11,678 bases of DNA from Acidobacteriaceae bacterium (lineage in GTDB: Bacteria; Acidobacteriota; Terriglobia; Terriglobales; Acidobacteriaceae): assembly GCA_003166055.1 (NCBI GenBank), contig PMWR01000318.1, forward strand, positions 1,992-13,669. The letters run 5' to 3'. The position numbers and the translations under genes were made by a program. Each line of letters starts with the position of its first letter. Position 1 is the first letter of the stretch. Of this stretch, positions 8,527-10,446 are shown in pieces. The notes under the pieces were generated by a model. That model was not told the origin of the DNA. It did not search any database and saw only the letters and a list, made by a program, of their open reading frames with translations.

Positions 8527-10446
8527 TTACGCTGCGCTCTGCAGTTCGTCCGCCAGAGAAGAAATCTCTTCGATGGCTGCTGCCAAATCCTCGGCGCCCT
8601 TGGCTTGTTGCTGGGCCGCGCCGGCTGCTTCGGTGGCTGCCTTGTCGGCTTCGGTTGCCGCGGCAGAGATCTGCTCGATGCCCTTCTTTACCTGGGCTAT
8701 GGCAGAGGCTATTTCGTCGGAAGCGGCGAGAATTTCCTGTGTGCCCTTTTCGACCACCAGGATGTCGGTCTCGATGGACACCAGGTCGGCAGTCGTGCTC
8801 CTGGCCTTCTCCACCTCGGAGATTGCCGCTGCCACGATCTCGTTCAGGTCGCGCCCCACCACGCCAATCTGATCCTGGACCGCCTTAACCAGATCCTTGA
8901 TCCGGTCGGCGTTCTCCGACGAATCATGGGCCAGGTTGCGAATGTCGGTGGCCACAACAACGAAGCCCTTGCCGAATTCGCCGGCCCGCGCGGCTTCAAT
9001 GGCGCCATTCACCGCCAGCATGTTGGTTTGGATCGACACCGTGCTGATGGCCTCGACGATCTTGTCGATGCGCCGTGACACCAGTTCAAGGTCGTTCATC
9101 TGCTTTATGCTGGCGCGAGATGCTTCCGCCGAAGTGGAAAGACCTGTAATCAACCCATTGACGGCCGTTTTGTTTTCGCCCAACAGATTCTTGATAGCAA
9201 CAACTTTCTCCGCGCTTGCGGTGGCGCGCTTCAGGGCAACCTCCAACCCCTTTTCGATCTGGTTGGTGGCCGCGGCGGATTCTTCGGAAGCTGAAGACTG
9301 CACCTCGGCGCCCTTGCGGATCTGGCCAAGTGCGGTCATGATCTGTGCGCTGGAGCGGTTGATCTCCTGCACCGCCGAGGACAACTCCTCTGAGGAGGAC
9401 GCCACCTGCTCGGCGCTCTTGGCCACATCGGTCGAGTTCTTCAAATCCTCTGCCAGTTCCGACAGGGCTTGTGCCGTCTGCTCGCACTCGCCCAGTGCCT
9501 GGGTCTGCTCTGCCACCGTCTTGGCGGACTCTTCGGCAGCGGAAGATTGTTCTTCGGCCGCGGCCGCAATGCTCTGCGAACCCTTCAGCGCCTGCTGCGA
9601 AGCAACGTTGGACTGCGCGGCGTTGGCGCCAATCTCCTGGATGCCCTTTACGATCTCAACCGCGTCGAGGCGGATCTGTTCCAGTTGCGCCGTAATCGTC
9701 TTGCCCTTCTCAACTTCTTCTTCCATCGTTTTGGCGGAAGTATTGATCCCGTCGGCGATCTTCTTTACATCCGTTTGAATCTGCCCAACCAGCTCCTGGA
9801 TCTGCTTGGCGCTCTTTTCCGAAGTCTCGGCCAGAGTGCGGACTTCATCGGCGACGACCGCGAAACCTTTTCCGTGCTTGCCGGCGCGAGCCGCCTCAAT
9901 GGCGGCGTTCAGTGCCAACAGGTTGGTCTGGTCGGCGATGCGCGCCACAGCCTTGACGATGTCGCCGATAGTGGCGGCCTGCTTTTCCAGTTCGACCACC
10001 ATGGCTACGGAGGCGACCTGGCGCTGTGCGGCCAGTCCAACATTGGCAATAAGTCCTGCGACATCTGCGCTGGTGCGAATGATCACAGTCTGGCAAGCCT
10101 CGCCCTTACCGCGGCTCGCCTCGGCGTTTTGCAACTGCCGGGCAAGAGACACTCCAACTTGCTGGAAGGCCGCCAAGGACTCTTGCGCCGCAGCCGATGC
10201 CTCTTCGGCTCCGGTTGCGATCTGATCGCTGGCGCGTTTCAGCTCCTCGGCGGCAGACGATGCCTCGGCGATGCCGGAGGCCAATTGTCCCGTGGCTGCC
10301 GCAATGCGTTCGGCTGCCTGTTGCTGTTTGGCGAGCGTCCTTGCCTTTTTGCGCTGCGCTTCCGCCTCGCGAGTGGTTACAAGTGAGGGCCTACCATCCG
10401 TTGACGCTGAGGATGCCTGTGCGGCAGCCTTCTTGACAAGTGCCAT
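8527..10446 (-). CDS. Soluble methyl-accepting chemotaxis protein with two tandem signalling hairpins
   Basis: This 639-residue protein is rich in Ala, Glu, Ser and Lys and looks like coiled coil almost throughout. It has no signal peptide, no membrane helix and no recognisable sensor domain. It carries two complete receptor hairpin tips: ADQTNLLALNAAIEAARAGK at 171-190 and SIQTNMLAVNGAIEAARAGE at 471-490. Each is followed by the expected GKGF.VVA..(V/I)R.LA descending strand. These tips bind CheA and CheW. Segments fitting the receptor methylation consensus (small-small-x-x-E-E-x-x-small-small) occur at 77-86, 294-303, 349-358 and 384-393, and cheB and cheR are in the same operon. The protein therefore appears to consist of two adapter-binding hairpins with arms of about 150 residues each. 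It would act in the cytoplasm or be recruited to an array, taking its input from another protein. The first tip is canonical and the second has drifted slightly. The start follows a strong ribosome binding site and cheW begins 12 bp downstream. The family call is certain; how it receives a signal is unknown. Confidence 0.93.
   Translation of the reverse strand: MALVKKAAAQASSASTDGRPSLVTTREAEAQRKKARTLAKQQQAAERIAAATGQLASGIAEASSAAEELKRASDQIATGAEEASAAAQESLAAFQQVGVSLARQLQNAEASRGKGEACQTVIIRTSADVAGLIANVGLAAQRQVASVAMVVELEKQAATIGDIVKAVARIADQTNLLALNAAIEAARAGKHGKGFAVVADEVRTLAETSEKSAKQIQELVGQIQTDVKKIADGINTSAKTMEEEVEKGKTITAQLEQIRLDAVEIVKGIQEIGANAAQSNVASQQALKGSQSIAAAAEEQSSAAEESAKTVAEQTQALGECEQTAQALSELAEDLKNSTDVAKSAEQVASSSEELSSAVQEINRSSAQIMTALGQIRKGAEVQSSASEESAAATNQIEKGLEVALKRATASAEKVVAIKNLLGENKTAVNGLITGLSTSAEASRASIKQMNDLELVSRRIDKIVEAISTVSIQTNMLAVNGAIEAARAGEFGKGFVVVATDIRNLAHDSSENADRIKDLVKAVQDQIGVVGRDLNEIVAAAISEVEKARSTTADLVSIETDILVVEKGTQEILAASDEIASAIAQVKKGIEQISAAATEADKAATEAAGAAQQQAKGAEDLAAAIEEISSLADELQSAA

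Follow-up and report, generated by a model that had tools for sequence, protein, structure and literature searches.

An acidobacterial DosM chemoreceptor and the probable pairing of its two unlike signalling hairpins in one four-helix bundle

DosM is a soluble chemoreceptor encoded in the stretch of DNA analysed here (the window: 11,678 nucleotides from an Acidobacteriaceae bacterium, assembly GCA_003166055.1, contig PMWR01000318.1, positions 1,992 to 13,669). Ordinary methyl-accepting chemotaxis proteins (MCPs) have one signalling hairpin per chain and form homodimers with identical tips. The single chain of DosM carries two such hairpins with different tips. The conservation and covariation patterns of its family make it probable that DosM is an obligate heterotypic receptor, with a canonical and a variant tip in every bundle. 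The receptor would be either a pseudo-dimer made of one chain or a domain-swapped, antiparallel rod whose two composite ends are the same. Jointly with this pairing, and with the same likelihood, the 300-residue distance between the tips would be a ruler that has been held almost without exception across bacterial phyla. The pairing of the hairpins and the ruler are what is new here, and we infer both.

The two hairpins and the spacing between them

The bases GGAAAGGA are found immediately 5' of the dosM ATG. The gene and the parts of its product on which the argument turns are the following:

8527..10446, minus strand: dosM, a 639-residue soluble receptor with two MCP signalling hairpins (open reading frame, motif positions, Pfam)
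10303..10344, minus strand: conserved start of the first helix, residues 35-48 (mean conservation 0.82)
9862..9936, minus strand: signalling tip 1, residues 171-195 (mean conservation 0.90 over residues 165-215)
9409..9444, minus strand: hinge LKNSTDVAKSAE, residues 335-346 (helix break at 338-340 in the AlphaFold model; heptad slip of about one residue)
8962..9036, minus strand: signalling tip 2, residues 471-495, the variant tip, which differs from tip 1 throughout the family (mean conservation 0.84 over residues 465-515)
8536..8583, minus strand: conserved end of the last helix, residues 622-637 (mean conservation 0.81)

The motif QTN lies at residues 173 and 473, and the motifs NAAIEAARAG and NGAIEAARAG occupy residues 180-189 and 480-489. 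The original prediction, made from this sequence without database searches, had placed two tips exactly 300 residues apart, and this is confirmed by the two QTN motifs and by Pfam, in which MCPsignal matches the protein in two stretches (E 2.9e-64). The protein had also been said to lack a membrane helix and a sensor domain, in agreement with what is found: no membrane helix is evident, the highest 19-residue Kyte-Doolittle window averaging 1.43, and apart from MCPsignal no Pfam family is matched at E <= 0.001. The hairpins are ungapped copies of each other. At a shift of 300, 105 of 339 residues are identical, as compared with 32.7 on average and 51 at most when the sequence was shuffled 2000 times. 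The likeness begins at about residue 41 and continues to the C-terminus.

The family was represented by 450 distinct sequences of 560-900 residues, the window DosM counted in; the identity of the latter across the set reaches down to about 40%. The tip-to-tip spacing is exactly 300 residues in 442 of them, the exceptions being 299 (two sequences), 293 (two), 298, 290, 265 and one gap. No row of the alignment has an insertion between positions 61 and 620, and the hinge region (residues 325-350) has one deletion and no insertions. Three DosM-like genes found in the genus to which genome G1407 belongs also have the spacing of 300, and they align gaplessly from residue 40 to 630. This genus is taken to be Vibrio because the Vibrio Aer2 model matches G1407 above its cut-off.

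The two tips had been thought to have drifted apart, which is not the case. At eight pairs of equivalent positions (161/461, 167/467, 170/470, 176/476, 179/479, 181/481, 202/502 and 212/512) each tip keeps a residue of its own in at least 90% of the 450 sequences. At 172/472 and 191/491 the residues of the two tips scarcely overlap; E184/484, R187/487, F195/495 and others are common to both. Because the eight positions are fixed throughout the family, the asymmetry of the tips is old and conserved rather than a product of drift. Conservation is also high where the first helix begins, at the hinge (0.73) and where the last helix ends, in comparison with 0.50-0.55 in the middle of the arms, and by the symmetry of the hairpins these three segments would sit together. 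The S, T and D of the hinge are conserved in 93% of the sequences each, and it is at this helix-breaking element that the heptad register shifts.

Covariation between the hairpins

With the four arms named N1, C1, N2 and C2, mean-field direct coupling analysis of the 450 sequences (effective number about 137) recovered the contacts within each hairpin near i+j = 380 and 980, which served as a positive control. Between the hairpins, peaks lay at i+j of about 680 for N1-C2 and C1-N2 and at a difference of about 300 for N1-N2 and C1-C2. In the four-helix bundle of MCPs, adjacent N-C pairs are stronger than the diagonal N-N and C-C pairs, and the couplings between the hairpins follow this pattern. 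Mutual information, calculated on 447 sequences with z taken against far bands, gave z of 5.5 and 7.2 within the hairpins, 4.4, 5.1, 3.7 and 3.8 between them, and 1.1-2.2 for six controls in wrong orientations. Over all sequences, covariation between the hairpins at matched heights is thus about as strong as that within them.

When the sequences were split into disjoint sets of 241 close and 206 distant relatives, the best band for N1-C2 and C1-N2 lay at 677-680 in both, with z of 3.0 and 2.4 in the close set and 4.4 and 3.8 in the distant one. For the same two arm pairs the narrow band is higher than its flanks in each of the three zones of height (weakest p 0.03); the intra-hairpin control N1-C1 falls short in the tail zone (p 0.43). 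Pairs with z > 4 are enriched in the band, which covers a tenth of the area (N1-C2 20 of 66, C1-N2 13 of 59, N1-N2 13 of 48), and for N1-C2 the enrichment holds at z > 5 (6 of 12). The coupled pairs reach as far as the hinge (327-351 and 332-348). These patterns support a single four-helix bundle that is shared by both hairpins and has two tips that differ. Homodimers in which like tips stay together are unlikely, since they would not predict covariation of hairpin 1 with hairpin 2 at matched heights.

Several features of the same data weigh against this conclusion. A broad background of matched rates lies beneath the peak and extends for about 25 residues on each side, and small excesses (z -0.1 to 2.5) occur in control bands of wrong orientation. 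The signal is almost as high after hairpin halves have been exchanged between members of a tight cluster; most of it therefore comes from differences between clades, in few independent events. In the close set the bands between the hairpins reach about half the height of those within them (0.13 and 0.11 versus 0.24 and 0.21); of the N1-N2 and C1-C2 bands there is a recurrence in the distant set only. The C1-C2 band is not enriched in strong pairs (7 of 54 at z > 4), at z > 5 neither C1-N2 (3 of 15) nor N1-N2 (3 of 11) is significant, and charge complementarity between the hairpins gave no signal.

The broad background, the predominance of signal between clades and the modest effective number of sequences would all be in keeping with an artefact, in which shared phylogeny, or a likeness in rate between sites that stand at the same height in the two repeat copies, imitates contact. 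Such an origin is nevertheless very improbable. The narrow peak stands above the background, its place recurs in the disjoint subsets, and none of 30 alignments simulated on a tree with site variability preserved reached the observed inter-hairpin values. In addition, the strength of the strong inter-hairpin pairs shows no correlation with that of their paralogous pairs.

Arrangement of the chains

The arrangement that we favor, and to which we would give about an even chance, is an antiparallel rod of two chains. The chains would lie head to tail, each spanning from baseplate to baseplate, with hairpin 1 of one chain packed on hairpin 2 of the other. A hairpin 1 and a hairpin 2 would together make up every end of the four-helix bundle, and each CheA/CheW-binding end is predicted to bear one canonical and one variant tip. 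As the two ends of the rod would be identical, both baseplates would meet the same composite tip. The fixed 300-residue spacing would then serve as the ruler of a two-layer array, in which DosM would bind to both baseplates and may act as a scaffold. This arrangement was chosen because it is the most economical fit of the covariation with the published rod: the available text of PMC7534058 describes DosM as extended, with one signalling domain at each end, and the F9 system of Vibrio cholerae is described in the available literature as a double-layer array with such a rod.

The original prediction was a closed pseudo-dimer made of a single chain. Its shared four-helix bundle with unlike tips agrees with the covariation; its origin from one chain does not follow, since the contacts would be no different in an antiparallel dimer, and PMC7534058, as far as its available part goes, describes an extended rod. 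In the closed form a tight turn at 338-340 would allow one polypeptide to make up an entire bundle of about 22 nm, with both tips at the same baseplate, and in a double layer two such bundles would be joined tail to tail through the conserved tail (residues 35-48, 335-346 and 622-637). Several points speak for it, some of them also against the antiparallel rod: the contact map, including the coupled pairs up to the hinge, is fitted equally well by a closed single chain, the S-T-D motif is conserved, and the heptad slip there is no less compatible with a turn than with a straight rod. Structure prediction of the monomer had been proposed as a check. AlphaFold breaks the helix at 338-340, and the modelled chain probably folds back there; with one chain modelled, the program satisfies contacts within that chain only, and the predicted template modelling score is 0.58. 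A plain loop should moreover tolerate some insertions, whereas the hinge region has none, and the published rod is extended, although two short bundles stacked on each other might look alike at low resolution. Overall, the closed form is possible but seems to us rather less likely than the rod.

The length of the antiparallel rod also poses a difficulty. The plane of CheW is set slightly inward of the receptor tip, which would shorten the distance expected between the baseplates. At 0.148 nm per residue, 300 residues correspond to 44 nm as against the 35 nm between the V. cholerae baseplates given in the available text of PMC3964821, and a mismatch remains.

It is also conceivable that the two chains of a rod run in the same direction, bringing two copies of tip 1 together at one end and two copies of tip 2 at the other. 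Ordinary receptors are indeed parallel homodimers. The published descriptions of DosM, in their available parts, state neither how its chains pair nor how they are oriented in the rod. This third arrangement is nonetheless improbable: it predicts no contacts between the arms of hairpin 1 and hairpin 2, yet over all sequences these couple about as strongly as the arms within a hairpin, and it would leave the two baseplates unequal.

Relation to known receptors and systems

By its sequence the window protein is DosM of the F9 cytoplasmic chemosensory system, an ordinary member of a kind that has already been named and studied. It has the double MCP signalling domain without a sensor domain or membrane helix, it is accompanied by a triple CheW and by CheA, CheB, CheR and a response regulator, and it is akin to the DosM proteins of the presumed Vibrio. 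The assignment follows from the available text of PMC9321776, according to which the double-signalling-domain DosM and the triple CheW are unique to F9. The same text reports full F9 clusters in 64 of 2781 species (about 2%) and no sensory domain in 98% of DosM proteins. The possibility that the architecture would turn out to be common and already characterised, which the original prediction had left open, is thus borne out as regards characterisation and not as regards commonness.

The DosM of V. cholerae (VC1403, F9 or cluster I) is described in the literature available as likewise having tandem signalling domains, in a system with a triple CheW and CheA. The window DosM is 46-47% identical over its length to the three DosM-like genes of the presumed Vibrio, VC1403 itself being known by description only. 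In V. cholerae the array has been observed, whereas the window system is known from its genes. Solved hairpins of ordinary cytoplasmic MCPs (for example Thermotoga 2CH7 and the Escherichia coli Tsr fragment 1QU7) match DosM in sequence and fold. The double-layer array of Rhodobacter sphaeroides is built from single-hairpin receptors. In the accounts available, this array and that of the purified E. coli Tar fragment sandwich their receptors between two baseplates about 27-31 nm apart, and the Tar fragment receptors have a single hairpin, unlike DosM.

The gene cluster

Neighboring genes were compared in 86 related loci with dosM (L001-L080 and L123-L128), 65 of which have at least 8.5 kb of downstream sequence. 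The counts below are tblastn matches within 11 kb of the dosM start in these 65. All genes from cheW3 to the start of the membrane receptor are on the dosM strand.

10860-11678, minus strand: protein with receiver and Hpt domains, end only (Pfam), 413 bases upstream of dosM
6883..8514, minus strand: CheW3, three CheW domains in one chain (Pfam CheW, three stretches)
5806..6879, minus strand: CheB methylesterase (Pfam; 64 of 65 loci)
5126..5764, minus strand: HEAT-repeat protein between cheB and cheR (Pfam; 61 of 65)
4252..5166, minus strand: CheR methyltransferase, longest open reading frame, first ATG at 5118 (Pfam; 63 of 65)
3884..4255, minus strand: single-domain response regulator (Pfam)
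1368..3887, minus strand: CheA kinase, 839 residues from the ATG at 3887, overlapping the end of the regulator (Pfam; 64 of 65)
1126..1368, minus strand: 80-residue open reading frame after cheA, overlapping its stop (weak similarity to STAS_2, E 0.0016, below the Pfam cut-off; 61 of 65)
742..1116, minus strand: second single-domain response regulator (Pfam)
1..696, minus strand: start of a membrane receptor, cut at the window end (hydropathy up to 2.4; no Pfam match in this piece)

A search for the same architecture beside triple-CheW genes elsewhere had been suggested, and a cheW3 match lies downstream of dosM in all 65 loci, as a tblastn match rather than a count of CheW domains in each locus. 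The response regulators are matched in 64 loci each, where the two may cross-match. The membrane receptor is matched in at least 14 loci, a lower bound because its place is close to where the compared DNA stops. A longer relative in L001 matches MCPsignal, and the piece is reminiscent of VC1394, a transmembrane 24H receptor that the available literature describes in the F9 cluster of V. cholerae. The receiver and Hpt protein upstream of dosM is probably a separate hybrid kinase.

Some variation was seen on plasmids. The HEAT gene does not lie between cheB and cheR in the clusters of Rhizobium and Novosphingobium plasmids (L127, L128), and in two F9 clusters on large plasmids of Azospirillum (L125, L126) dosM is directly preceded by a response regulator and a CheC-like gene. 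The short reading frame right after cheA is labelled 'hypothetical protein' in all six plasmid records examined.

Relatives and distribution

The closest loci belong to acidobacterial metagenome-assembled genomes, mostly from peat, with 89-93% protein identity, and in a quick tree the window DosM groups with five such loci with a support of 100, which makes an acidobacterial host probable. In four sampled groups of genomes, DosM-like matches to the query P0001 at E <= 1e-60 were found in 6 of 396, 9 of 369, 15 of 297 and 4 of 295, and matches to L096 in 2 of 295 (at 1e-50) and 3 of 177. All of these counts except the last include a central genome known or found to have DosM, some matches are fragments, and only 3-7 candidates were scored per genome. 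DosM is also present in 25 plasmid records, in 18 of which at least 80% of the query is matched in one place. One genome (G007) has two DosM genes, L116 and L120, which are 73% and 45% identical to the window DosM and both have the spacing of 300.

Implications

If the antiparallel rod is correct, it would explain how the equal faces of a sandwich can be supported by one protein whose tips are unlike. If unlike tips share a bundle, DosM would be a natural receptor with genetically distinct tips in one bundle, each of which could be mutated alone. It could then be asked which half of the bundle touches CheA or CheW, and whether both halves are needed for signalling, which is hard to address with homodimeric receptors.
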